Assembly: GCA_030654635.1 (NCBI GenBank)
Contig: JAURXE010000375.1
Span: forward strand, 1 to 11,951
Origin: Pseudomonas sp.
GTDB taxonomy: Bacteria; Pseudomonadota; Gammaproteobacteria; Pseudomonadales; Pseudomonadaceae
Reading direction: 5' to 3'
DNA length: 11,951 nt
In this document: positions 1 through 11,951 of the stretch, one piece after another
Position numbering within the stretch: position 1 is the stretch's first letter
Layout of the letters: each line of letters opens with the position of its first letter
Made by a program: the position numbers and the translations under genes
Notes under the pieces: generated by a model
The model's input: only the letters and a program-made list of their open reading frames with translations
What the model was told of the DNA's origin: nothing
Databases searched by the model: none

Positions 1-260
1 GCCTCATACATGGCCGGCACATTGGGCAACAACACCGCGACGGTATCGCCGCGCTGCACGCCGTGCTGCGAGAGCGCCGAAGCCAGGCGCCGACAGCGCT
101 CATAGGTGCTGGCCCAGGAGTACTCAATCGCACCGTAGATCACTGCCGTGCGCTCAGGGTAAACATGGGCCGCGCGGGCCAGGAAAGACAGCGGCGACAA
201 GGCGGTGAAGTTGGCCTGGCACTGGTCCAGGCCGGTCGAATAGAGGGTGGCGTTGGTCAT
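1..260 (-). CDS. Acyl-CoA synthetase (AMP-forming), N-terminal part, cut by window edge
   Basis: Seen: an open frame from the ATG at 260 to the left edge gives 86 residues, starting MTNATLYSTGLDQCQANF, then a stretch of the type LSPLSFLARAAHVYPERTAV, then GVQRGDTVAVLLPNVPAMYEA. Known: this run (NF.pLtPlsFL.Raa.vyPertAv, followed by Gv..GD.VavllpN.p.m.ea) is the characteristic N-terminus of fatty-acyl-CoA ligases of the ANL superfamily, which activate a carboxylic acid with ATP and CoA. The AMP-binding and C-terminal lid motifs lie outside the window, so substrate class cannot be judged. A GGAG ribosome site sits 7 bases before the start. It begins 30 bases after the DUF1330-like gene and is the fourth gene of the minus-strand operon, suggesting it activates an acid produced by the upstream enzymes. 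Family call is fairly certain; chain-length preference is not. Confidence 0.87.
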   Translation of the reverse strand, partial: MTNATLYSTGLDQCQANFTALSPLSFLARAAHVYPERTAVIYGAIEYSWASTYERCRRLASALSQHGVQRGDTVAVLLPNVPAMYE

Positions 261-290: not shown

Positions 291-965
291 TTAACGGCGG
301 CGCGCGGCGCGCAGCCAGCCGAACGCCAACAGGATGATCAGGCTGGCAAAACCCAGCAGCAGGCGCACGTCCGGGGTGATGGCCGCGCCGTCGGTGGGCA
401 CCAGGTCGACATGCAGCGCGGCGAACTTGTAGGGCATCATCTTGGTCAGGTAGTCGGGGTTGCTCACCAGCTCAAAAAAAGCCTGGCGACTGGGGTAGCG
501 CACCACCAGCAGACGGCTCCAGTTGTCGGCATCCTTGGCATGCCCCAGCAGGTTGGTGCTTGGCGTCGGCCCTTGGCGCACGCCCTGCACATTGCTGGCC
601 ACCGGCATCTGTACGCCGGCCACCAAGGCAATGCCCATGGTCATCTGTTCATAGAGACTATTAGTTTCCTCCGGCGTGGCGCCCTTGACCTGGGTGCCCG
701 GCAAGGGCTGCAACTGCGGGTGGTAACGCATCAGGTTGAACATATACACCGGCTCACCGTCGTCGGCGGCACCCCAGGTGCGCAGGTCGGCGATAAATAC
801 GGCCTTGTCTGCGGCCGGCAGCGGCGCCAGCTGGTCGATGCGCTGCACGTAGGTATCGATCTCGGCCTGGCTCAGCACATGGCCGGGTGCCTGCCAGTAA
901 CACACCGCGAGAAACAGACCGAGCAAAATGCTGCCCAGGATAAATTCAGCTTTATAGAATTTCAT
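291..965 (-). CDS. Membrane-anchored DUF1330-like protein
   Basis: Seen: 224 residues with one hydrophobic segment near residues 8-24 and another at about 202-219, ending in a basic tail (RAARRR). By the positive-inside rule both ends face the cytoplasm and the roughly 175 residues between them lie in the periplasm. That part contains EPVYMFNLMRY (71-81) and VVRYPSRQAFFELVSNPDY (154-172), which resemble the two conserved blocks of DUF1330, a ferredoxin-like dimeric alpha/beta-barrel fold. Typical DUF1330 proteins are soluble and only about 100 residues, so the helices and the extra length are unusual. An AGGA ribosome site lies 9 bases before the ATG, and the gene begins 15 bases after the epoxide hydrolase stop, so it is co-transcribed with it. 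No function is known. Inference: a periplasmic binding or isomerase-like accessory for the operon's hydrophobic substrate. Confidence 0.75.
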   Translation of the reverse strand: MKFYKAEFILGSILLGLFLAVCYWQAPGHVLSQAEIDTYVQRIDQLAPLPAADKAVFIADLRTWGAADDGEPVYMFNLMRYHPQLQPLPGTQVKGATPEETNSLYEQMTMGIALVAGVQMPVASNVQGVRQGPTPSTNLLGHAKDADNWSRLLVVRYPSRQAFFELVSNPDYLTKMMPYKFAALHVDLVPTDGAAITPDVRLLLGFASLIILLAFGWLRAARRR

Positions 966-980
966 GGTGAGAGTTCCTGA

Positions 981-1796
981 TTAAGCCAGTGCCGCGAGAA
1001 TGAGTGGGGTGACTTGCTCTGGCGCATCCAGCTGCAGCCAGTGGTTGGCGCCGTTGACCCGCTGGTAGCGAAAGCCCGTGTCGCAATAAGCGGCGCTGGC
1101 GAGCATCTGCCGCTCGGTGAGAAAACGGTCGCCATCGCTGAAGATGCCGGTCACCGGCACGCTGACGCGCGGATAGGTGCGCGGCAGAATCAGCTGCAAA
1201 TTAGCCCGGTAATAATTGATCCCGGCGGTCAGCCGACCCGGCCGGGAAAGTGTCTTGCGCCAGTGCGGCAGTTCTTGCGGGAAGCCGGTGAACAGACCAA
1301 AGACCTTCCAGTTACCCAAACGCAACAGCCATTCGGCGAAGCCGCGCAGCTGAAACAGCAGCACGTAGTAACCCTTGAGTTTTTGCACCAGGCCTCCGCT
1401 GCCATAGGCACTCGGATGGCCGACCGACAGGGCCACATAACGCTCGATGCGCTGCGGGTGGGCCATGACCAACTGCCAGCCGATCACCGCACCCCAGTCG
1501 TGGGCGACCAGCTTGACCTTGGCCAGGCCCAGCACATCCAGTAGTGCCACTAGATCGGCGATCAGGTGCTTGATCTGGTAATCGGCCACCCGCACCAGCA
1601 ACTGACTGTCGCCACAACCGCGTGTGTCCGGGGCGATCACCCGGTAGCCAGCCGCGACCAGCGCCGGGATCTGCTCACGCCACACCGCGTGGGTGTCCGG
1701 GAAGCCATGCAGTAACAGCACCGGCTCGCCTTCGCCGACGTCGATCACGTTCAGTTCGACGCCATTTACCCGCAGCAATTTACGGGGGAAGTTCAT
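981..1796 (-). CDS. Epoxide-hydrolase-like alpha/beta hydrolase
   Basis: Seen: 271 residues with the alpha/beta-hydrolase order complete. The oxyanion motif HGFP is at 30-33, the nucleophile elbow AHDWGAVIGW has Asp100, an acid candidate (Asp221 or Asp223) lies in FSDGD, and the base is His252 in GANHWLQLDAPE. Known: an Asp nucleophile followed by Trp, together with lid tyrosines (YY at 143-144, INYYRAN with 195-196), is typical of soluble epoxide hydrolases; fluoroacetate dehalogenases usually carry HDRG at the elbow. There is no signal peptide, so it is cytoplasmic. The start at 1796 is preferred because an AGAGAGG site lies 8 bases upstream and overlaps the stop codon of the dehydrogenase gene, implying translational coupling. 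An ATG at 1814 would overlap that stop (ATGA) and add six residues, and is the alternative. Haloacid or ester hydrolysis cannot be excluded. Confidence 0.88.
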   Translation of the reverse strand: MNFPRKLLRVNGVELNVIDVGEGEPVLLLHGFPDTHAVWREQIPALVAAGYRVIAPDTRGCGDSQLLVRVADYQIKHLIADLVALLDVLGLAKVKLVAHDWGAVIGWQLVMAHPQRIERYVALSVGHPSAYGSGGLVQKLKGYYVLLFQLRGFAEWLLRLGNWKVFGLFTGFPQELPHWRKTLSRPGRLTAGINYYRANLQLILPRTYPRVSVPVTGIFSDGDRFLTERQMLASAAYCDTGFRYQRVNGANHWLQLDAPEQVTPLILAALA

Positions 1797-1810: not shown

Positions 1811-2983
1811 TCATACCGGCACCGGCTGCGCGGCCAAGCGCCGCGGATCGATAAGAATCTTGGCGTGCAGCTCCGGGTCCTTGAGCGCCTCGAAGGCATT
1901 GGCCACCCCATCCAGCCCGACGATGCCGGTCAGCATCGGCGCGCAATTGACCTTGCCCTCGGCGATCAGGTGCAGGGTGTCGCGGTACTCAAGCGGCGAG
2001 TGGCCGAACACGAAGCGCAGGTCGATCTCCTTGTGGATGGCCAGCGCCGGCTCGTAACGGTCGACCTGCATGCACACCCCGGCCACCACCACCCGGGACA
2101 GCAACGGCGCGCCATCGATGATCTGCTGAACGATGCCGGGCACCCCGACGCACTCGAAAATCACCGGCCGCTTGGGCGCCCCGGCGCCGAGTTTCTCGGC
2201 CAGCCGCCAGGCCAGATGCCAGGGAATCGGCAGCTTGCCGAGCTTCTCGCGGGTGCCGACCGACAGTTCCAAGAGCGCCGGCAGGTCACGGATAAAGCCC
2301 TCGTTGGGACGCTCGACAAACGGCGAGCCTTGCTTGGGATCGATGACGATATCGGCGCCGCAACGCTGGGCCAGGGCGCGCCGGCCGGCGGAGAAATCGC
2401 TGGCCACCACGGTGCCGACGCCCTGCGCCTTGAGCAGGCAGATCACCGCCAGACCAACCGGGCCACAGCCGACCACTATGGCCACATCCTTGCGGGCGAT
2501 TTCGCTGCGGCGTACCGCGTGCCAGGCCACCGCCATCGGCTCGGTCAGCGCCGCCATGTCGGCGGACAGGCCGTTGGGCACCGGCACCAGCGCCGACTCC
2601 TGCAACAGCATGCGTTCGGCATAACCGCCGGTGGCAATCGGTGACAGCCCGGCCAGATGGATATCGCCGCCGATGCGCAGCACCGGCTGGGCCACCACCC
2701 GGGTACCGGGCTTGAGTTTCTGTTCGCAGCCGGGGCCGTATTCGAGCACTTCGCAGCACAGCTCATGGCCGAATACGAAGGGCTGATTGCTGGACGGCAG
2801 CTGCTTGCCAAAGCCGACTTTCTCCAGCAGCGCTTTCATCGGATCGCACTGGTGACGCATGTGCAGATCGGAGCCGCAAATGCCGCAGCGCAGCACCTCG
2901 ACCAACACCTGCCCCGGGCCGGGAACCGGCTCGGGTAACTCAACCAAGCTGAGTTCAGCGTTCTGACAAACAACAGCCTTCAT
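1811..2983 (-). CDS. Zinc-type alcohol dehydrogenase (MDR superfamily)
   Basis: Seen: 390 residues. Catalytic-zinc ligands are recognisable: Cys36 in RCGICGSDLH, His73-Glu74 in FGHELC, and Glu148 in LTEPM. The nucleotide fold has GCGPVGL (172-178), and Asp196 at the end of the second strand suggests NAD rather than NADP. Known: MDR alcohol dehydrogenases oxidise alcohols to aldehydes or ketones. Odd: the structural-zinc lobe (four Cys after the GHE region) is missing, residues 95-115 having none, and about 30 extra residues, including LPIPWHLAWRLAEKLG, interrupt the Rossmann domain around 220-270. The start at 2983 is chosen for a GAGGAG site (plus-strand 2991-2996) seven bases upstream; a start at 3001 would place that site inside the gene. 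It is the first gene of a four-gene operon, with a copy of the shared regulatory element 57 bases upstream of its start codon. The substrate is unknown. Confidence 0.9.
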   Translation of the reverse strand: MKAVVCQNAELSLVELPEPVPGPGQVLVEVLRCGICGSDLHMRHQCDPMKALLEKVGFGKQLPSSNQPFVFGHELCCEVLEYGPGCEQKLKPGTRVVAQPVLRIGGDIHLAGLSPIATGGYAERMLLQESALVPVPNGLSADMAALTEPMAVAWHAVRRSEIARKDVAIVVGCGPVGLAVICLLKAQGVGTVVASDFSAGRRALAQRCGADIVIDPKQGSPFVERPNEGFIRDLPALLELSVGTREKLGKLPIPWHLAWRLAEKLGAGAPKRPVIFECVGVPGIVQQIIDGAPLLSRVVVAGVCMQVDRYEPALAIHKEIDLRFVFGHSPLEYRDTLHLIAEGKVNCAPMLTGIVGLDGVANAFEALKDPELHAKILIDPRRLAAQPVPV

Positions 2984-3040
2984 GACGGCACTCCTCGACA
3001 ATGAGACGCAAAGAGCCGGCTAGCCCTGAGCAGAAAGTGT

Positions 3041-3101
3041 CGAAAGTTTGCCGCCAGGCACCAACAGAAACTTTATATTTCACGCCATTCGTATTTAGCG
3101 C
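3041..3101 (-). promoter_or_regulatory. Shared regulatory element, copy 1
   Basis: This stretch matches 11049-11109 base for base without gaps. Positions 3068-3101 match at 31 of 34 bases, including the identical 20-mer AAACTTTATATTTCACGCCA, and 3041-3052 match at 11 of 12 (CGAAAGTyTGCC). The middle 15 or so bases are poorly conserved. The spacing between the two blocks is the same in both copies, as expected for a two-site protein-binding region. Read on the minus strand, TGGCG starts three blocks, at 3103, 3087 and 3056. The element lies 57 bases upstream of the dehydrogenase start codon. It is inferred to be the operator of the AraC-type regulator encoded at 11129; no clear -35/-10 pair could be assigned. 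Confidence 0.72.
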
Positions 3102-3441
3102 CAGCGGCCACTCGGCGGCCCTATTCGCGCTGCGCTAACGGCACAAATCTGCCGGCCCTGAATCACGCGCAAAGCCGCGAATAATCTGGGCTGAGCGGCG
3201 AGCAAGGGGGCCGATCCAATCCCGCGAGCAGGCGATCTTGGCGGTCGTAAACACCCTGAATTTCCGGCGCAGGCCCTCCCCCGGTGGCCTAGCCATGCGC
3301 CACGTTTCCGGCTTGAATATCCCCCCAGGAGTTCTTGCTGAGTCGAAACACGCCACTGATGAGTCTCTTCAGGGGGAGCGTCCTCAGCTAATGCTCGGAG
3401 CACTTCCCAACTTACTGGCTGAACGCCAAAAGGAACTGACG
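3102..3441. other. Intergenic region upstream of haloalkane dehalogenase
   Basis: About 340 bases lie between the shared element and the dehalogenase start. Frames through it are open in places, but the translations look random (low-complexity Arg/Pro/Gly-rich) and have no ribosome sites, so I see no gene. No convincing sigma70 or sigma54 promoter was found, although a promoter for the plus-strand genes must lie here. The only clear signal is the AGGA ribosome site at the right end, serving the dehalogenase. The length would allow a long leader or several regulator sites. Confidence 0.5.
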
Positions 3442-4335
3442 ATGAAGGTGTTGCGCACCCCCGATGCATGCTTTGCCAACCTGCCCGATTACCCATTTGC
3501 TGCGCACTACCTTGAAGTCGGGACGGCGCTGCGCCTGCATTACGTGGATGAAGGCCCGCGCGACGGCAAGCTGGTATTGATGCTACACGGCGAACCGAGC
3601 TGGTCGTTTCTTTACCGGTTTATGATTCCACCGGTGGCCGCAGCCGGGCTGCGCGTGCTGGCGCCAGATTTGATCGGCTTTGGCAAATCCGACAAACCGG
3701 CGCAACGCAGCGACTACAGCTTTTCCGGGCAAGTGGCGTGGCTGCGCGAGTGGATCGAAGCACTCGATTTACGCGATATCACCCTGGTCTGCCAAGACTG
3801 GGGCTCGCTGATCGGCTTGCGTCTGGCGGCGGAAAGTCCCGAGCGTTTTGCCCGGGTAATACTGTCCAACGGCGGCCTGCCCACCGGCGCAGAAAAAATG
3901 TCGCTGACCTGGCGCCTCTGGGAAAAATTTGCCCGCTTGAGCCCCTGGTTTCCCATCGGCCGCATTCTGCAATTTGGCACCAAACGCAAACTGACCCCAG
4001 CCGAAATCGCCGCCTACGACGCGCCGTTCCCCGCCGAAAGCTTCAAGGCCGCAGCGCGCATCTACCCTGCACTGGTGCCGGTGCTTTACGACGACCCGGA
4101 GGCGGCGAAAAACCGTGCTGCTTGGGCGGTCTATCGACAATGGCAAAAGCCGTTCATTACTTGCTTCAGCGATGGCGACCCGGTCACCCGCGGCTGGAAC
4201 CAATACTTCGTTCGCGCAGTTCCGGGGGCTCAGGGCCAGGAGCACTGCACGCTGCATGGCGGGCATTTTATTCAAGAGGACGACCCGCTACGCTTTGCCG
4301 AATTGGTGATTGCCGCCTGTAATAAACATCCGTAG
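3442..4335 (+). CDS. Haloalkane dehalogenase, HLD-I type
   Basis: Seen: 297 residues. HGEPSWSFLYRFMIP (49-63) and LAPDLIGFGKSDKP (73-86) follow the Xanthobacter DhlA pattern closely. The nucleophile is Asp119 in CQDWGS, followed by Trp120; the acid is probably Asp246 in FSDGDPVTRG; the base is His275 in LHGGHFIQEDDP. Known: class I haloalkane dehalogenases hydrolyse carbon-halogen bonds through an Asp ester and hold the halide with the Trp after the nucleophile plus a second Trp in the cap. Cap candidates here are Trp157, Trp160 and Trp169. There is no signal peptide, so it acts in the cytoplasm. The start at 3442 is preferred because AAAGGAA lies about eight bases upstream; the longer reading from 3238 adds 68 residues that do not resemble the family. 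The Cys-type sulfatase follows on the same strand after 146 bases. Activity on halides is inferred, since some relatives are poor dehalogenases. Confidence 0.87.
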   Translation: MKVLRTPDACFANLPDYPFAAHYLEVGTALRLHYVDEGPRDGKLVLMLHGEPSWSFLYRFMIPPVAAAGLRVLAPDLIGFGKSDKPAQRSDYSFSGQVAWLREWIEALDLRDITLVCQDWGSLIGLRLAAESPERFARVILSNGGLPTGAEKMSLTWRLWEKFARLSPWFPIGRILQFGTKRKLTPAEIAAYDAPFPAESFKAAARIYPALVPVLYDDPEAAKNRAAWAVYRQWQKPFITCFSDGDPVTRGWNQYFVRAVPGAQGQEHCTLHGGHFIQEDDPLRFAELVIAACNKHP

Positions 4336-4481
4336 TCGACGCCAGGACGCCGGGCTCCCAGCGACCCAGCAAGGCCACCACCGTCAGGGATTTATCTGAG
4401 CATCGAACAAGGCGTGGCGCAGCTTTTCCCGGCGTAGGAAAGGTTGGCCGCGCAAACCCAGTCAACAAGGAGAAGTCTGGT

Positions 4482-6974
4482 ATGAAAACGTTCAACCTGA
4501 TCGCGAGCCTCGCACTATCAACGGCCGTCTTGACGTTCAGTTCCAGCGCCAGCAGCGCGCAGCAAGTCACCGGTGAACTGGGTTCGGCCAACGCCACCAG
4601 CACCGCCGATGCACAACAACTGCCAACGCCGGAGCCCGCTTTCGGCGGGGTGATCAAGCAAAAGGCCGCCGACTCGACCGCCTGGTGGGCACCGCGCATC
4701 GTGCCGCCCAAAGGCGCACCCAATGTGCTGCTGATAATGACCGACGATAGCGGCTTTGGCGCACCGGGCACCTTCGGCGGCGTGGTGCCGACGCCGGCGC
4801 TGGATCGGATTGCCAAGGCTGGCCTGCGTTACACCAACTTCCACTCCACCTCGCTCTGCTCGCCCTCGCGGGCGGCCTTGATTACCGGGCGCAACCACCA
4901 TGTGGCCGGCTTCGGTGTGGTGGGCGAAATCGCCACCGGTTTCCCCGGCTACAACTCGGTGATCCGCAAGGAAACCGGCACCCTCGGGGCGATCCTGAAG
5001 GACAACGGCTACGCCACCTCCTGGTTCGGCAAGAACCACAACACGCCCTTCTACCAATCGACTCAGGCCGGCCCTTTCGACCAGTGGCCGAACGGCATGG
5101 GCTTCGATTATTTCTACGGTTTCGTCGGCGGCGATGCCAGCCAGTGGCAACCCAACCTGTACCGCAATACGACGGCCATCTACCCCTTCGAGGGCAAGCC
5201 AGGCTGGAACCTGACCACGGCCATGGCCGACGAAGCCATCCAGTACATGAAGCAGATCAAGGCGATCGCGCCCGACAAGCCGTTCCTGGTCTATTACGCG
5301 CCGGGCGGCACCCACTCCCCCCATCATCCGACGCCCGAGTGGATCGACAAGATCGGCGCCCTGCACCTGTTCGACCAAGGCTGGAACAAGCTGCGCGAAA
5401 CCATCTTCGCCAATCAGCAACGCCTGGGCATCATGCCCCCCGAAGCCAAGCTGACCCCCTGGCCGAAAGAGCTGCCCGAGTGGGACTCCCTTGGCTGGAA
5501 GGAGAAGAAACTCTTTATCAAGCAAGCCGACGTATTTGGCGCCTACCTGGCCTACACCGACCATGAGATCGGCCGGGTGATTCAGGCGGTCGAGGACCTT
5601 GGCCAGCTCGACAACACGCTGATCATCTACATCGCCGGCGACAACGGGGCGAGCCCCGAAGGCATGCTCAACGGCACCCCGAACGAATTCACCACCTTCA
5701 ATGGGGTTGCCGTGCCGGTCGATGCCCAGTTCGCCTGGTATCCGTTCTGGGGCTCGGACAAGACCTTCCCGCACTTTGCGGCGCCCTGGGCCTGGGCCCT
5801 GGACACACCCTTCAAGTGGACCAAGCAAGTGGCCTCGCATTACGGCGGCACCTCACAAGGCATGGCCATCTCCTGGCCCGGCCACATCAATGACGTCGGC
5901 GGCATTCGCCGGCAGTTTCACCACCTGATCGACATAGTGCCGACTGTCCTTGAAGCCAGCGGAATTCCCGCACCGCAAACCCTTACCGGCGTCCAGCAAC
6001 GGCCCATGGACGGCGTGAGCCTGACCTACACCTGGGACAAGGCCAATGCCTCCAGCCCGACGCAGCACAGCACCCAGTACTTCGAGATGCTCGGCAACCG
6101 CGCCATCTACCATGACGGCTGGCTGGCGGCCACGACCCCGGCGACCTTGCCGTGGGAACTGAGCAGCAAACCGGCGCCCGATGTCATCAGCGGCTACCAG
6201 TGGGAACTCTACAACGTGGCCGAGGACCCGACCGAGTTCGACGACCTGGCGACCAAGATGCCGGACAAACTCAAGCAGATGCAGGAACTGTTCTACGCCG
6301 AGGCGGCCAAGCATGACGTGCTGCCACTCGACAACAGCTCGCTGACTCGCTGGAATGCGCCCAAGCCAAACCTCACCGGGGGACGCAAGGTCTTCAACTA
6401 CTCAGGGGTACTGACCGGCGTGCCAAACAGCGGCGCACCGAGCATCCTCAACAAGTCGTACCGCATCAGCGCCGAGGTCACCATCCCCGAGGGCGGCGCC
6501 GAGGGCATGATAGTCACCGACGGCGGACGCTTTGGCGGCTATGGGCTGTTTTTGAGTAAGGGTGTGCTGGACATTCGCCGCAGCAAACCGGTGTTCCTCT
6601 ACAACCTGCTCAACCTCAAACGCACCGTGTGGGCCGGCCCTGAGCTGGACGCCGGCAAGCACAGCATCGTCTTCGAGTTCACCTCCAAAGAACCGGGCCT
6701 GGGCAAAGGCGGCACCGGGGTACTCAGCGTGGACGGCAAGGAGGTGGCCCGCAACAGCATGGAGAACTCCACGCCGATCACCTTCCCCGAAGATGAAACC
6801 TTCGATGTCGGTCAGGACACCCGCACCGGCGTCGCCCTGCTGGAGTATCGCTACGATGTGCCGTTCGCCTTCACGGGCGAGATCAACAAGCTCAGCTTCA
6901 ACCTCGAACCTGAGCAGGTAACGCCAGAAGAGCGTGCGGCGATGGCCAAGACCGCCGCTCAAGCACGGGATTAG
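4482..6974 (+). CDS. Secreted Cys-type arylsulfatase, 830 residues
   Basis: Seen: a signal peptide with probable cleavage after Ala26 (SSA|QQ), then a sulfatase core. Metal ligands are Asp88-Asp89 (TDDSGFG) and Asp387-Asn388 (AGDNGAS). The signature LCSPSRAALITGRNHH carries Cys126, the residue converted to formylglycine, and Arg130. Other active-site residues fit Lys184/His186 (FGKNHNTP), His278 and Lys448. After about residue 635 a beta-rich domain of some 170 residues follows, with a short charged tail. Known: such enzymes hydrolyse sulfate esters; P. aeruginosa AtsA has about 536 residues, so this belongs to the long type with a C-terminal beta-sandwich. It should act in the periplasm or outside. 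AAGGAGA lies about nine bases before the ATG. It follows the dehalogenase and converges on the maturase gene. No formylglycine-generating enzyme of the aerobic type is in the window, so the neighbouring radical-SAM maturase may serve it. The substrate is unknown. Confidence 0.93.
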   Translation: MKTFNLIASLALSTAVLTFSSSASSAQQVTGELGSANATSTADAQQLPTPEPAFGGVIKQKAADSTAWWAPRIVPPKGAPNVLLIMTDDSGFGAPGTFGGVVPTPALDRIAKAGLRYTNFHSTSLCSPSRAALITGRNHHVAGFGVVGEIATGFPGYNSVIRKETGTLGAILKDNGYATSWFGKNHNTPFYQSTQAGPFDQWPNGMGFDYFYGFVGGDASQWQPNLYRNTTAIYPFEGKPGWNLTTAMADEAIQYMKQIKAIAPDKPFLVYYAPGGTHSPHHPTPEWIDKIGALHLFDQGWNKLRETIFANQQRLGIMPPEAKLTPWPKELPEWDSLGWKEKKLFIKQADVFGAYLAYTDHEIGRVIQAVEDLGQLDNTLIIYIAGDNGASPEGMLNGTPNEFTTFNGVAVPVDAQFAWYPFWGSDKTFPHFAAPWAWALDTPFKWTKQVASHYGGTSQGMAISWPGHINDVGGIRRQFHHLIDIVPTVLEASGIPAPQTLTGVQQRPMDGVSLTYTWDKANASSPTQHSTQYFEMLGNRAIYHDGWLAATTPATLPWELSSKPAPDVISGYQWELYNVAEDPTEFDDLATKMPDKLKQMQELFYAEAAKHDVLPLDNSSLTRWNAPKPNLTGGRKVFNYSGVLTGVPNSGAPSILNKSYRISAEVTIPEGGAEGMIVTDGGRFGGYGLFLSKGVLDIRRSKPVFLYNLLNLKRTVWAGPELDAGKHSIVFEFTSKEPGLGKGGTGVLSVDGKEVARNSMENSTPITFPEDETFDVGQDTRTGVALLEYRYDVPFAFTGEINKLSFNLEPEQVTPEERAAMAKTAAQARD

Positions 6975-7025
6975 GCTCAGCGACGGAGCGGCGCCCCTGC
7001 CGGAGCTTCGCAAACCACAGAACAA

Positions 7026-7053
7026 CCACGCTCGGTTCTATAACCGAGCGTGG
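7026..7053. terminator. Perfect 12-bp hairpin between convergent genes
   Basis: CCACGCTCGGTT (7026-7037) is followed by a four-base loop and its exact complement (7042-7053). It lies between the stop of the Cys-type sulfatase and the stop of the maturase, which converge here. Only short, interrupted T runs follow on either side (CAGTTTG on plus, TTGTTCT on minus), so it resembles a bidirectional transcription end with weak U-tracts. Confidence 0.72.
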
Positions 7054-7082
7054 CAGTTTGCACGCGACCTGCTCTCCGGCCA

Positions 7083-8369
7083 CTAGCGCTTCAACAGCAA
7101 CGGCCCTTTATAGGCGTCCATGATGGTCGAGGCCGCAAAACCCTGGCTGACGATCTGCCCCAGGGCATTCATGGCTTCGGTGATGTGGGCAAAATATTTC
7201 TTATAACTGGGGCACAGGTAGTTCAAGCCCGCTTCGCCGTCGGGGGTGCGGGTGAAGCGGTTTTTCGGGCATTCGCCATGGCAGGCAAAGAGATAGGGAC
7301 AACGCTGGCAATAGCCTGGCAGCGTGGTTTCTTTGGCCGCGCCAAAAGCCTGCTGCACCGCACTGGCGGCCAGCGACGAGAGATCATCCTCGACGATATT
7401 GCCCAGGCGATAGTCGGGGTACATAAAGTGATCGCACGAATACACCTCGCCACTGTGCTCAACAATCAGCGCCTTTCCACAGCGCGGCGCAAACAGGCAA
7501 ACGCTGGCCGGCAGTTGCAACCAAGAAGCCAAGGCCCATTCGAAATTCATCACATGCACAGTGCCGACATCATTGCGCACCCACTCATCGAACACCGCGA
7601 TCAGAAAATCCCCATAGGCCTCGCGCTCGACACTTTGCGGGCTGACGGCGGCCGCGCTGGGCGGTAGTTCGTCGAGCGCTGAAGGCTGCCCAAGCGACAA
7701 GCCCGGTGGCTGGGCGAAATGCAAATGAATCACTTGCTCGGCCGACGTCGGCAGGCGTTCGACCACCGGATTGAACTGGATAAACCGCACCCCCGCGGCT
7801 TTGAGGAAGCGGTAGATTTCCAGACCATGGGCCGTGCTCTGCCGGCTCACGGTGACCAGCACATTGAACTGCACCCGATGCTGGCGCAGCAGCTGCAGCC
7901 CTCCCATGACCGAGTCAAAACTGGAGCGACCCTGTTTGTCGGGGCGGTGCAAATCGTGGATGGCCTGCGGGCCATCGATGCTGATGCCAACGGTGAAGTC
8001 TTCGGCGGCCAGAAACTCGCACCACTGCTCGTCCAGCAAGGTGCCGTTGGTTTGCAGACTGTTGCGGATGGTTTTAGCGCCGGCATATTCGCGCTGGTAA
8101 CTCACTGCACGCTGGAAGAACTCGACCCCCAACAGGGTCGGCTCGCCACCCTGCCAGGTGAACTCGACCTCAGGCGTGGATTGCGCCGCGATGTAGCCTT
8201 GCACGTAGGCGCGCAAGACCTCATCGGTCATGCGAAATTTTTCCCGCGGCGGGTACATGGCCTCTTTTTCCAGGTAGAAACAGTAGTCGCAATCCAGGTT
8301 GCAAATCGGCCCAACGGGCTTGGCCATCAGGTGCAGACCTTGTTGCTCAGCCGGGCTGTCACTCATCAT
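7083..8369 (-). CDS. Anaerobic sulfatase-maturating enzyme (radical SAM/SPASM)
   Basis: Seen: 428 residues. The radical-SAM cluster motif is C23-x3-C27-x2-C30 (CNLDCDYC), followed by TWQGGEPTL (71-79) and GISIDGP (128-134). Eight further cysteines at 291, 297, 312, 354, 357, 363, 367 and 386 reproduce the spacing of the two SPASM auxiliary clusters of Clostridium perfringens anSME, and Asp313 directly after Cys312 matches its catalytic Asp. Known: anSMEs use S-adenosylmethionine radical chemistry to oxidise an active-site Cys or Ser of sulfatases to formylglycine in the cytoplasm, without oxygen. A Pro/Ala-rich stretch at about 205-245 looks longer than usual. AGGAG lies five bases before the ATG at 8369; ATG 8366 and TTG 8372 are alternatives. 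It follows the Ser-type sulfatase on the same strand, which is its evident substrate. The strong cysteine match makes this call secure. Confidence 0.95.
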   Translation of the reverse strand: MMSDSPAEQQGLHLMAKPVGPICNLDCDYCFYLEKEAMYPPREKFRMTDEVLRAYVQGYIAAQSTPEVEFTWQGGEPTLLGVEFFQRAVSYQREYAGAKTIRNSLQTNGTLLDEQWCEFLAAEDFTVGISIDGPQAIHDLHRPDKQGRSSFDSVMGGLQLLRQHRVQFNVLVTVSRQSTAHGLEIYRFLKAAGVRFIQFNPVVERLPTSAEQVIHLHFAQPPGLSLGQPSALDELPPSAAAVSPQSVEREAYGDFLIAVFDEWVRNDVGTVHVMNFEWALASWLQLPASVCLFAPRCGKALIVEHSGEVYSCDHFMYPDYRLGNIVEDDLSSLAASAVQQAFGAAKETTLPGYCQRCPYLFACHGECPKNRFTRTPDGEAGLNYLCPSYKKYFAHITEAMNALGQIVSQGFAASTIMDAYKGPLLLKR

Positions 8370-8390
8370 CAAAGCTCCTGTGTCTCAGGC

Positions 8391-8421
8391 CAAAAAGGCG
8401 GCGTGGTCACCCCACGCCGCC
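8391..8421 (-). terminator. Rho-independent terminator after Ser-type sulfatase
   Basis: On the minus strand GGCGGCGTGG, a five-base loop and CCACGCCGCC form a perfect 10-bp GC-rich stem (8397-8421), directly followed by five T (plus-strand A at 8392-8396). It starts 32 bases past the sulfatase stop codon and ends just upstream of the maturase ribosome site. The plus strand has no T-run after the stem, so it acts in the minus direction. It would limit expression of the maturase relative to the sulfatase. Confidence 0.85.
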
Positions 8422-8453
8422 CCTTGGCTCACTGCGTTTTCACACGCGCCGAG

Positions 8454-10859
8454 TTATGGCATGTACTGAATATGCACATCATTGATCACACCGTTAAAGG
8501 CGAACGGAGCCTGGTCGAAGTAGTCGAGCGACACCGGTGCGCCCCGGTCGAGCCCGACATCCAGGGTCTCGGTGGCACTGAAGGCAATGGGCGCGGTGAA
8601 GGGCACGGTGTTCTCGGCGACCTGCACGCCATTGACCGACAAGCTGACATCGGCCGGTACACCACGCCGGCGCGACGACATGTTCAGTTCGACGGCAATT
8701 TGCGCACGACCGGCCGGCAGCGGTTCCGACGCCTGCAGCTTGGTGCGCACCATGCCAAAGCCGTTGTACTCATAGGTCAGCCGGCCATCTTGCAGGTACA
8801 GGCTGATGCCGCCGCCGATACCGCCCAGGGCAAACAGCACGCCATTGGCATTGGCCGGCAGCTCGGCATCGACGGTGACCCGGTTGTTGTGCGACTTGAT
8901 ATTCGGCGCGGCGAATTCCGGGATGCGCGAAGCACTGCCGGGCAGGTGCCATTGCGCCTGATCGTCGTAGTGGCGCGGACGCACCAGCATGTCGAAGCTG
9001 ACGCCAATCGGGTAGACATGATTGGCCTTGGCATCCTGATCAAATTTGTCTTTCAGCTCTGCGAGTTTTTCCGGGTGGGCCGCAGCAACATCCTCGGCTT
9101 GGCCAAAGTCATTATTGAGGTCATACAGCGCCCACTGGTCGTCTTCGGGCTTCCATTTCAGCCAACCGAAATAATCGCCGATCCAGTTCTGGTTAAGCAC
9201 TATGGCCAGCTTGCCGGCAAAAGACACCAGCCCGGTCTGGTCCGCCACCCAGGGTTTGCGCGGGCCGAGCACCGCCGCGACCCAGCCGTCGGCGTATTCG
9301 GCGCGGCTGCCCATGACTTCGAAGTACTGCTGCTTTTTGCGATTTTCCGCCCCGGCATTATCGAAGCTGTAGGCGAGGCTGATGCCATCCAGGGGGAGCT
9401 GGGGCTGCCCGTTCAACTCGGCAGGCGGGGTGATTCCAATAACGTCATAGATGGTCGGGGCGATGTCGTTGACGTGGTGAAACTGCCCGCGCACCGTCGC
9501 ATCCGGTTTGATCTGCTTGGGCCAGGACACCGCCATGGGCGTGCGCGTCCCGCCGAAATAACCGGCCACCAATTTGGTACCGACGAAGGGACTCATCCCC
9601 GCCCAGGCCCAGGCGGCATTGTAATGTTCTTCGACTTTCGGCCCGCCCAAGGCCGCCAGCCCACCGATTTTATCCAGGGCTGCCATTTGCTCTTGGGGCG
9701 TGGTCTGGATGCCGTTCAAGCCCACCAGGGAACTGATGGAACCCTGCATGCCTTCCGCCGAGGCACCGTTGTCGGAGAGCACGTAAAAAATCAGGGTGTT
9801 GTCACGCACACCGAGGCGCTCCAGCTCATCGACAATCTTGCCGGCCTGGGTGTCGGTGTGTTCGAGAAAGCCGGCATAGACCTCCATCAGTCGCGCCTGG
9901 AACTTCTGCTCTTCAGCACTCAGGCTGTCCCAGGCTGGCAGCTCGGCAGGCCGCGGCGAGAGCTTGGTGTCCGCCGGAATCCAGCCCAGCGCCTTCTGGC
10001 GCTCGAAGGCCCGCTGACGGTAAGCATCCCAACCGCTGTCAAACTTGCCTTTATATTTGTCCGTCCACTCTTGGAATACCTGATGCGGCGCATGCACGGC
10101 GCCCGGCGTCCAGTAGACGAAGAAAGGCTTGTCCGGCTGGGTCGCCTGGTGCTGATCGATCCACTCAATGGCTTTTTGTGCGATGTCTTCGGTGAAGTGA
10201 TATTTCGGATCGTGGGGCGACTCGATCAGCGTGGTGTCGTTCACTAGCAGGGGACTGTACTGATCGGACTCGCCGCCCATAAAGCCGTAGAAATGATCGA
10301 AGCCATAACTGGTCGGCCAGTGATTGAACGGGCCCTTGGCTACGACTTCATGGGCCGGAGTGTTGTGCCATTTGCCGAAGGCCGCACTGCTGTAGTTATG
10401 CTCGTGCAGCACCTGCGGCAGGGTGGCCGCCGTCGGCGGAATGATCCCGGTATAGCCGGCGTCATCGGTCGCCGCTTCAGTGACGGTGCCATTGCCAACC
10501 CGGTGATGATTGCGCCCGGTCAGCAGTGAAGCCCGAGTCGCCGAACTGATTGCCGTGGCGTGAAAGGCGTTGTACTTGATCCCGCTTTGCGCAATGCGGC
10601 TCAGGGTCGGGGTGTGGATCTCGCCTCCTACTGTGTCGGCCTGAGCAAAGCCGGCATCATCGAGCATGATAATCAGGATATTCGGTGCCGCAGGTTGGCT
10701 GGCCTTGCCATCCGTCGCGGTCGGGTTGCTCGCTGCGGTTTGGGTTGGCAAGAGCGCGGCTTGTTCGGCGCCGGCCATGGAGCTGGCCAGGCCACCGAAC
10801 GCCAGCACACCCAGCGACAAGGATGAACGCAGCGGTTTAAAGGAACGCGATAGTTTCAT
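8454..10859 (-). CDS. Secreted Ser-type sulfatase with S-S-A-T-R active site, 801 residues
   Basis: Seen: a signal peptide with probable cleavage after Ala31 (AGA|EQ), then a sulfatase core with Asp67-Asp68 (LDDAGFA), Lys163/His165 (FGKWHNTP), His256 (VHAPH), Asp363-Asn364 (LSDNGAS) and Lys429. At the catalytic position the sequence ATAISSATRASLLTGRNHH has Ser105 (codon AGT) instead of Cys, Ala107 where Pro is usual, and Arg109. A beta-rich C-terminal domain covers about 640-801, like the sulfatase at 4482. Known: Ser-type sulfatases such as Klebsiella AtsA need a radical-SAM maturase to form formylglycine, and one is encoded next to this gene. The usual signature has Pro at the third position, so the Ala is atypical. 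GGAG lies seven bases before the ATG. A copy of the shared element lies 189 bases upstream of the start. The enzyme should be periplasmic, and its substrate is unknown. A loss of activity is possible but unlikely, given that all other active-site residues remain. Confidence 0.93.
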   Translation of the reverse strand: MKLSRSFKPLRSSLSLGVLAFGGLASSMAGAEQAALLPTQTAASNPTATDGKASQPAAPNILIIMLDDAGFAQADTVGGEIHTPTLSRIAQSGIKYNAFHATAISSATRASLLTGRNHHRVGNGTVTEAATDDAGYTGIIPPTAATLPQVLHEHNYSSAAFGKWHNTPAHEVVAKGPFNHWPTSYGFDHFYGFMGGESDQYSPLLVNDTTLIESPHDPKYHFTEDIAQKAIEWIDQHQATQPDKPFFVYWTPGAVHAPHQVFQEWTDKYKGKFDSGWDAYRQRAFERQKALGWIPADTKLSPRPAELPAWDSLSAEEQKFQARLMEVYAGFLEHTDTQAGKIVDELERLGVRDNTLIFYVLSDNGASAEGMQGSISSLVGLNGIQTTPQEQMAALDKIGGLAALGGPKVEEHYNAAWAWAGMSPFVGTKLVAGYFGGTRTPMAVSWPKQIKPDATVRGQFHHVNDIAPTIYDVIGITPPAELNGQPQLPLDGISLAYSFDNAGAENRKKQQYFEVMGSRAEYADGWVAAVLGPRKPWVADQTGLVSFAGKLAIVLNQNWIGDYFGWLKWKPEDDQWALYDLNNDFGQAEDVAAAHPEKLAELKDKFDQDAKANHVYPIGVSFDMLVRPRHYDDQAQWHLPGSASRIPEFAAPNIKSHNNRVTVDAELPANANGVLFALGGIGGGISLYLQDGRLTYEYNGFGMVRTKLQASEPLPAGRAQIAVELNMSSRRRGVPADVSLSVNGVQVAENTVPFTAPIAFSATETLDVGLDRGAPVSLDYFDQAPFAFNGVINDVHIQYMP

Positions 10860-11048
10860 GCAAGACTCCAGTTTGATCCGTTAGCAACCCCGCCCGACGA
10901 CTCGTTTAGTCACTGCCAAGCTTAGTTGCTCAATGCACCACAGGCGCTGGCCGCACTGTCAGTTGGCGGGCTGACCGACAACCGCCATCACCACGGCATT
11001 GCTCTACAGTGAGAGGCAGAGAAGCGGAAAATTCTCGACCACAAGGAA

Positions 11049-11109
11049 CGAAAGTCTGCCCACTGCCCGTGCAATAAACTTTATATTTCACGCCAATCGT
11101 CTTCAGCGC
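11049..11109 (-). promoter_or_regulatory. Shared regulatory element, copy 2
   Basis: This is the partner of 3041-3101, with the same two conserved blocks at identical spacing (11049-11060 and 11076-11109). It lies in the divergent region between the Ser-type sulfatase (189 bases to its start codon) and the AraC regulator (19 bases to its start codon). Its orientation relative to the sulfatase is the same as copy 1 relative to the dehydrogenase operon. A position so close to the regulator start suggests autoregulation, probably repression, while the sulfatase side would be activated. Assignment to the AraC protein is inferred from position and repetition. Confidence 0.72.
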
Positions 11110-11128
11110 AGCGAGTTGCCCAAGCCCC

Positions 11129-11951
11129 ATGCCACTCTATGAACCCTTCCTCTCGTCGCGCTACGTCGCGCCCCTGCTGACGATCCTGCAACGCCAGCAC
11201 GCCAGCGCCCTGGAGCGCATTCTCGAGCGCGCGCAACTGCCGGCGAACAAGCTGCAATTGGCCGGCAAGTTCATCACCTACCCGGAGTTTGATCGCCTGC
11301 TGTGCGCCGCCGCCGCCGAACTGCAGCGCGACGACCTGGGTTTCGAGCTTGGCCAGAACATCACCATCGATCACCACGCGGCGCTGGGCGTGGCGCTGCG
11401 CCAATGCCGCACGGCCGACCAACTGCTGCGTCTGGTGGCGCGCTTCAGCAAGCTGATCACCAATGGGTTTTTCATCCATTACCAGCGGCACGCTGAGTAT
11501 GGCGAACTGCTGATTCGCCCCGCGGCAATGCTCAGCCAGCAGACCCTGTATGCCATGGAAGAGTTGTTCGCGGTGTCCACGCACAGCGACTTGATGGCCA
11601 TGCTCGAGCAGGCACCGGGGCTGGAGATCTCCCTGTCGATGCCCAGGCCGGCGCATGCCGAGCGCTATGCGCGGCTACGGCCGACACGCTTTCAGTTCGG
11701 CGCCAATGGCTTGCCCGAAGTGCGCTGCCGCTTGCCCGCGGCCCTGCTCGACAAACCCCTGCGCCAACCCGCCGGCAGCCCACCGCGCGACGGCGTCGAG
11801 CTGGCCAACCAACGCCATCCAGACCAACGGAGCAAGGAATACAGCCAGTGGCTGAAGATGATGCTGCGCGAAGCCGAAGGGGTGCAGCCGCGCCTAGCCG
11901 AGCTGGCGCAGATGCTGGCGATCAGCCCGCGCAGCCTCAACCGCTACTTGC
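11129..11951 (+). CDS. AraC-family transcriptional regulator, C-terminal end missing
   Basis: Seen: 274 residues to the right edge. The N-terminal part starts MPLYEPFLSSRYVAPLLTIL and continues with PEFDRLLCAAAAELQRDDLG, LGVALRQCRTADQLLRLVARF and a central region ending near DGVELANQRH. This is the layout of the arabinose-binding-type N-terminal domain found in OruR-like AraC regulators. From about 253, PRLAELAQMLAISPRSLNRY is the first helix-turn-helix of the AraC DNA-binding domain; the second lies outside the window. Known: such regulators usually sense a hydrophobic or small organic ligand and control adjacent catabolic genes. The start at 11129 has only a weak ribosome site, and no other in-frame start is visible just upstream. 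The gene diverges from the Ser-type sulfatase, and the shared element sits 19 bases before it. It is the best candidate for controlling both element-bearing units. Confidence 0.9.
   Translation, partial: MPLYEPFLSSRYVAPLLTILQRQHASALERILERAQLPANKLQLAGKFITYPEFDRLLCAAAAELQRDDLGFELGQNITIDHHAALGVALRQCRTADQLLRLVARFSKLITNGFFIHYQRHAEYGELLIRPAAMLSQQTLYAMEELFAVSTHSDLMAMLEQAPGLEISLSMPRPAHAERYARLRPTRFQFGANGLPEVRCRLPAALLDKPLRQPAGSPPRDGVELANQRHPDQRSKEYSQWLKMMLREAEGVQPRLAELAQMLAISPRSLNRYL

Follow-up and report, generated by a model that had tools for sequence, protein, structure and literature searches.

In the long-term experiment with E. coli, the Cit+ trait reportedly arose by promoter capture. In horizontal regulatory transfer, a regulatory region that is replaced or supplied by a copy from elsewhere changes the regulator in control of a gene (available text of PMC5890482). 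In regard to regulators, GliR (PA3027) of P. aeruginosa is an AraC-type regulator that lies divergent from its target, its sites contain a GGCG box (e.g. GTGGCGTTATTCGCC), and a site at -35 together with one further upstream is needed for full activation of PA3026p, according to PMC8151288. The Pseudomonas ArgR is described in PMC10963909 as having the ARG box TGTCGCN6GNAA arranged in tandem.

In the locus presented here, the promoter region of an alcohol dehydrogenase (ADH) operon occurs a second time between an araC gene and an operon for a sulfatase and its maturase. In contrast to regulatory transfer and promoter capture as described above, the copy is intragenomic, lies 8 kb away, stands beside the regulator gene and retains what reads as a stub of the donor gene. 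The kind of event, promoter capture or intergenic replacement, is known, while this instance of it is new and unusually legible. As with GliR, an AraC-type regulator is divergent from its putative target, and no duplicated promoter is described for GliR in the accessible parts of PMC8151288. The GliR model matched the AraC of the cluster over its whole length with 55.7 bits against a cutoff of 570, and the regulator is not GliR. With ArgR the locus has in common the AraC/XylS family, putative tandem half-sites and a G/C-rich box followed by AA, whereas the box here is TGGCG and the repeat distances are 16 bp and 31 bp, compared with 21 bp for ArgR (a 16-bp box and a 5-bp spacer) in the accessible text of PMC10963909. 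The GliR consensus YYGGCGHTDTYSGMC did not place the core sequence of the duplicated promoter among its top four matches in either promoter, and the ARG-box pattern did not single it out. Since neither consensus picks out the core, we speak of likeness and not of membership. Among named AraC models, QhpR (NCBIfam NF049968) scored best for the full-length protein of a relative, with 102 bits and below its cutoff of 250, and the quinohemoprotein amine dehydrogenase family had no match among the window proteins scanned. Searches of open-licence full text listed no title dealing with this cluster or with a Pseudomonas system that combines sulfatase, AraC and anSME.

The locus and the extent of the duplicated segment

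The window, by which we mean the whole stretch of DNA analysed, is an entire contig (C12) of 11,951 bp from a 3.1 Mb draft genome (G000) in 791 contigs, which is 91% complete and probably a metagenome assembly. The genes that matter for the argument are the following:

1-260, minus strand: AMP-binding enzyme, cut by the contig end (ADH run; Pfam)
291-965, minus strand: unknown protein (ADH run)
981-1796, minus strand: alpha/beta hydrolase (ADH run; Pfam)
1811-2983, minus strand: zinc-dependent ADH, first gene of the run (Pfam)
7083-8366, minus strand: radical-SAM sulfatase maturase (anSME; TIGR03942, 485 bits, cutoff 349)
8454-10859, minus strand: Ser-type sulfatase (PF00884; SSATR motif in the translation)
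11129-11951, plus strand: AraC-family regulator, cut by the contig end (PF12625)

Besides araC, the plus strand carries a haloalkane-dehalogenase-like hydrolase and a Cys-type sulfatase. The sole relative with this AraC gene whose DNA was compared is a Pseudomonas sp. MAG (locus L005, genome G779), in which the cluster has 89-93% DNA identity to the window and occurs without the Cys-type sulfatase block. This block (2.7 kb, 4372-7070; the sulfatase has a CSPSR motif) is missing there, where about 60 bases stay unaligned. Past araC, the relative carries a PF10118 hydrolase, an alpha/beta hydrolase, a TetR regulator, a DUF1302 protein, a second AMP-binding enzyme and a thiolase (L005:11179-20575), which suggests a larger lipid- or steroid-like catabolic island.

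The first-pass annotation had pointed to a repeated 61-bp element, and its gapless alignment of 3041-3101 with 11049-11109 was reproduced, with 31/34, 4/15 and 11/12 matches in the successive blocks. The repeat stands, but not its extent, as the 61-bp element is the upstream end of a similarity that runs on without gaps to 145 bp, into the ADH codons:

2957-3101, minus strand: copy 1 of the duplicated segment, comprising upstream region, leader and the first nine ADH codons
10965-11109, minus strand: copy 2, preceding the sulfatase gene, with 19 bases between it and the start codon of araC

These copies are identical at 99 of 145 positions, at an offset of 8008 and with zero gaps, while no other place in the window exceeds 58 matches to the 145-bp segment on the same strand or 54 on the opposite strand. 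When the two regions were aligned locally, the score was 372, compared with a maximum of 196 in 2000 dinucleotide shuffles, in agreement with the earlier judgement that chance recurrence is very unlikely. The 84 bases past the 61-bp element are identical at 53 positions without gaps (next best 36), and the matches are distributed as 14/31 in 3010-3040, 20/26 in the ADH leader (2984-3009) and 19/27 in ADH codons 1-9 (2957-2983). Taken alone, leader and codons (2957-3009) match at 39 of 53 positions, compared with at most 25 matches elsewhere on the same strand and 26 on the opposite one, and their local score of 150 compares with a mean of 57.6 (sd 9.6, maximum 104) in 2000 dinucleotide-preserving shuffles. 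Similarity ends near ADH codon 9-10, past which 7/27 positions match, and on the other side at 3101, past which the count is 6/29. In the relative, both copies are kept at the same positions as in the window, and its own two copies also show the extension (score 187, shuffle maximum 134). Homology of the two upstream regions, ungapped over 145 bp, reaches past the putative binding sites, and duplication of a promoter segment is well supported by these sequence comparisons.

An ADH gene start in the sulfatase leader

The downstream end of copy 2 consists of donor-gene codons left at the recipient site, that is, the counterpart of ADH codons 1-9 within the sulfatase leader:

10965-10991, minus strand: remnant of the start of the ADH gene within the sulfatase leader (17/27 against the ADH start of a further genome, G237)

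The stub reads GTG ATG GCG GTT GTC GGT CAG CCC GCC (VMAVVGQPA), about 130 bases before the sulfatase start, and its counterpart in ADH reads ATG AAG GCT GTT GTT TGT CAG AAC GCT (MKAVVCQNA). Its start codon looks dead, since in both species the sulfatase copy has GTG and not ATG, and the Shine-Dalgarno sequence GAGGAG/GAGGAA has become GAGCAA. The stub forms a tiny frame in the sulfatase leader, GTG-ATG...TGA (VMAVVGQPAN; 10959-10991, minus strand), and a conserved leader peptide is unlikely because the frame of the relative differs (VTAVVVTHSSRR...).

In regard to the origin of these codons, ADH genes from elsewhere are informative. Three matches outside the own genome were obtained among 298 genus genomes, and one of them, in G237, is an 84%-identical ADH that begins ATGAAAGCTGTTGTTTGCCAGAAC and has an unrelated upstream region without the element. 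As this ADH has the same codons without the element, the first codons belong to ADH, and it follows that the shared sequence came to the sulfatase leader from ADH rather than to ADH from the sulfatase leader. An Acinetobacter ADH also starts MKSVLC. The other two matches (G142 and G241, 63-64% identical) are without the core and without a looser form of the half-site. In G237, the ADH lies in a similar gene set (L031, 7832-13595; hydrolase 65%, AMP-binding enzyme 67%), and since the element is missing upstream, such an ADH operon also exists under other control. Among plasmids, nine records held ADH relatives, and the one examined had a different gene context.

The reading we prefer, with a probability of about 0.74, is that the ADH promoter region and the first nine codons were duplicated to a site between araC and the sulfatase-maturase operon, which would have brought both operons under a shared predicted AraC activator. 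The promoter that was copied would be of the ADH type and under predicted AraC control. AraC would bind the core through the half-site TGGCGnnAAAT and activate both minus-strand operons, ADH and sulfatase, and copy 2 would also govern araC itself, as autoregulation, since only those 19 bases separate it from the araC start codon. The two operons would likely respond jointly to a sulfated alcohol, with the sulfatase freeing the alcohol and ADH oxidising it, after which the hydrolase and the AMP-binding enzyme would carry the product onward. Growth of a regulon is usually argued from binding sites that are too short to reveal their ancestry; here the origin is directly readable from the fragment of the donor gene that remains attached to the copied promoter, and comparison of the two species separates the retained core from the decayed start codon. 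The preferred reading predicts co-regulation of the sulfatase with an oxidation operon 8 kb away, which is invisible from gene order.

Alternatively, the same function could have been reached by the opposite history, which does not exclude the preferred reading. The araC gene would first have stood divergent beside a complete ADH gene, the ADH operon would then have been copied away, and the copy on the araC side would have been deleted down to the promoter and nine codons, where the sulfatase operon joined. Such a course of events yields the same stub, and the ADH of G237 without the element upstream is in line with it. It also starts from the usual arrangement, in which a regulator is divergent from its target. 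Nevertheless, one more step is needed, and the one relative with AraC that was compared shows no intermediate in which a second ADH stands next to araC, so that we regard this order of events as rather unlikely, although a serious candidate.

The core, its repeats and the putative regulator

Within the duplicated segment, the following smaller features were distinguished:

3068-3087, minus strand: core TGGCGTGAAATATAAAGTTT, copy 1, predicted AraC operator half-site, invariant in four of four copies
11076-11095, minus strand: core TGGCGTGAAATATAAAGTTT, copy 2, likewise invariant in four of four copies
3088-3103, minus strand: TGGCGCTAAATACGAA, which repeats the core half-site directly at a distance of 16 bp on the upstream side and is distinct in the ADH copies only
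3041-3056, minus strand: TGGCGGCAAACTTTCG, third half-site-like repeat, whose GGCAAACTTTCG end is the second conserved block (3041-3052)
11049-11060, minus strand: second conserved block, copy 2, GGCAGACTTTCG

The second conserved block agrees at 11 of 12 positions between the window copies, and 10 of the 12 are invariant in all four copies, that is, two from each species. On its minus strand, the window has four occurrences of the motif TGGCGNNAAA (TGGCGnnAAA), always within the two elements, with three occurrences in the ADH promoter (starts 3103, 3087 and 3056) and one in the sulfatase promoter; the single occurrence of the motif on the plus strand is inside the sulfatase gene. The sulfatase copy reads CTGCGCTGAAGACGAT where the ADH copy has TGGCGCTAAATACGAA, and this upstream repeat matches the core at 7 of 16 positions (counted by eye). 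Neither outer repeat position of the sulfatase copy reaches 8/16 against the core, a value reached at two other places. In the relative, the third repeat on the ADH side starts GGGCG and not TGGCG. Direct half-sites of which the last is nearest the gene would fit an activator of the AraC type. A core-like 14/20 match at L018:3637 was set aside, as it is not beside the sulfatase there. No Rfam match to a known RNA element was obtained at gathering cutoffs.

All four copies agree in 86 of the 145 columns, and an invariant run of 20 columns arose in 152 of 200000 column permutations, or in 246 of 200000 with noncoding columns only; with the two window copies alone the signal is weaker (1172 of 100000). 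Selective retention, mainly of the core, is supported by these comparisons. It had been proposed that the conserved ends mark two protein contacts. This step from similarity to contact has to be corrected, since the copies are paralogous through duplication of a longer segment running from promoter through leader to start codon, and similarity alone is then no proof of contact with a protein.

The 20-bp core occurs exactly twice per genome at up to 3 mismatches, both in the genome of the window, where it is found nowhere else in the draft, and in that of the relative. In the search of 398 genus genomes with up to 2 mismatches, it was found in the own genome (two exact matches) and in two genomes with one 2-mismatch match each, the reversed core giving one match as control. 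The distribution of the regulator is similarly narrow. In the relative, AraC is a full-length protein of 346 aa with PF12625 (79.5 bits) and PF12833 (HTH_18, 72.1 bits), and the window protein, cut by the contig end, shows PF12625 only. At E<=1e-30 this AraC was found in the own genome only among the 398 genus genomes (about six candidates scored per genome); in 369 genomes of the class, the own genome was joined by two matches at 26% and 29%; in 283 genomes of the order, with a relative as query and E<=1e-50, again only the own genome was found. Plasmids yielded no AraC relative at E<=1e-20. A protein database contained seven relatives at E<=1e-30. Three of them are 91-96% identical, and the other four, on contigs of about 1.5-3 kb, are 62-65% identical across the N-terminal part used in the search. 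The relatives P0004-P0007, encoded on metagenome contigs, have 60-62% identity to P0003 over the alignment.

Because the core has no further copies and the element is conserved in the relative with the cluster (one such relative was found), the likeliest function is a common control that takes in araC as well as the ADH and sulfatase operons. The earlier interpretation as a likely regulon is therefore retained, with its origin corrected to promoter duplication.

It is also possible that the duplication is real and that the core is read not by the adjacent AraC but by another AraC-like or global factor, or is itself a core-promoter element. The genome of the window has eight other places matching an AraC-type regulator (E<=1e-15, with the protein of genome G082 as query), so that naming this particular AraC rests mainly on its adjacency. 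Furthermore, the core holds two sequences similar to a -10 hexamer, TATAAA and, on the opposite strand, TATATT, and a similar half-site stands before a sulfatase in genome G131; the 19.5 kb surrounding that half-site contain none of the 11 AraC-like places listed there. On the other hand, unlike what would be expected of a global factor or a general promoter element, the 397 other genus genomes are practically devoid of the core when up to 2 mismatches are allowed, the core tracks this AraC gene in both of the two compared genomes that carry it, and a sigma-70 consensus pair was not found in either element region. A different reader is thus improbable in our estimation.

The comparison between species bears on whether the sulfatase-side copy works at all. 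Between the window and the relative, the sulfatase side keeps 33/34 positions of the core block, 26/26 of the leader and 17/27 of the stub codons, and the ADH side 31/34, 22/26 and 26/27, respectively. Such a pattern fits a working promoter with a discarded gene start, in a footprint that is shallow because only two genomes with AraC and the element, 89-93% alike over the cluster, were compared. If the sulfatase-side copy were instead a decaying duplicate that does not drive the sulfatase, the difference at about one third of positions between the copies, the degraded outer half-site repeats and start codon, and the failure to find a consensus promoter in 10850-11140 would all be accounted for. 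The near identity of its core and leader in the two species, set against the loss in the stub codons, makes such neutral decay very improbable. Two independent operators, made alike through selection by one AraC and with flanks of separate ancestry, would explain why the core is the best conserved part, but this is contradicted by gapless homology over 84 further bases, including ADH codons out of place in a sulfatase leader, and hardly deserves credence. A dispersed repeat or mobile element, suggested by two copies in one window, can be dismissed, as the first-pass annotation had already held, given exactly two core copies per genome and no exact match in the viral contigs searched.

Sulfatases of other Pseudomonas genomes

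Homologues of the Ser-type sulfatase at E<=1e-150 were present in 5 of 198 other genus genomes. The closest are 63-64% identical (two copies in G142, and G150), and the others (G040, G082 and G131) are 40-49% identical. Neither the core nor a match to this AraC was found with the two G142 sulfatases and that of G150 within the stretches compared. Eight upstream regions were checked for the half-site, one belonging to an ADH gene and the remaining seven to sulfatase or AraC genes. In G131 (L020:9016), TGGCGTGAAATACCAAG lies 92 bp before the sulfatase start, and in G082 (L021:10559), TGGCGCAAAATGCCAAG lies 89 bp before the homologous sulfatase, just after another PF12625 AraC gene. Against the 20-base core, the former matches at 15 of 20 positions, a score that 1 of 500 shuffles of the G131 region attained, and the latter at only 13 of 20, which 52 of these same 500 shuffles equalled or exceeded.

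The pattern TGGCGNNAAATNNNAAG, which was loosened post hoc after the matches in G131 and G082 had been seen, was counted over nine genomes, with one match in G131, one in G082, one in G237, two in the genome of the window, four in that of the relative and none in the remaining four; reversed controls gave zero matches. The extra matches in G779 (contigs C27 and C30) and G237 (contig C3) are inside ORFs and were taken as chance. Given the relaxing of the pattern after the fact, the homology of the sulfatases themselves, and the absence from G131 of any AraC closely related to that of G082 (best 30%), we treat the occurrences in G131 and G082 as a lead. With this reservation, the half-site TGGCGnnAAATnnnAAG may be the signature of a larger set of Pseudomonas sulfatases under AraC control. 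A broader proposal, which includes this set and which we hold tentatively, at somewhat less than even odds, is that a single copying event expanded the catabolic regulon by inserting an activator-dependent promoter, together with the start of its gene, between the activator gene and the sulfatase operon, thereby recruiting the sulfatase and placing the activator under its own operator at once.

Finally, without carrying the core, a stretch of G040 (L022) holds sulfatase, ADH-like, hydrolase-like and AraC-like genes together, and this gene group is possibly a parallel assembly of the same pathway.
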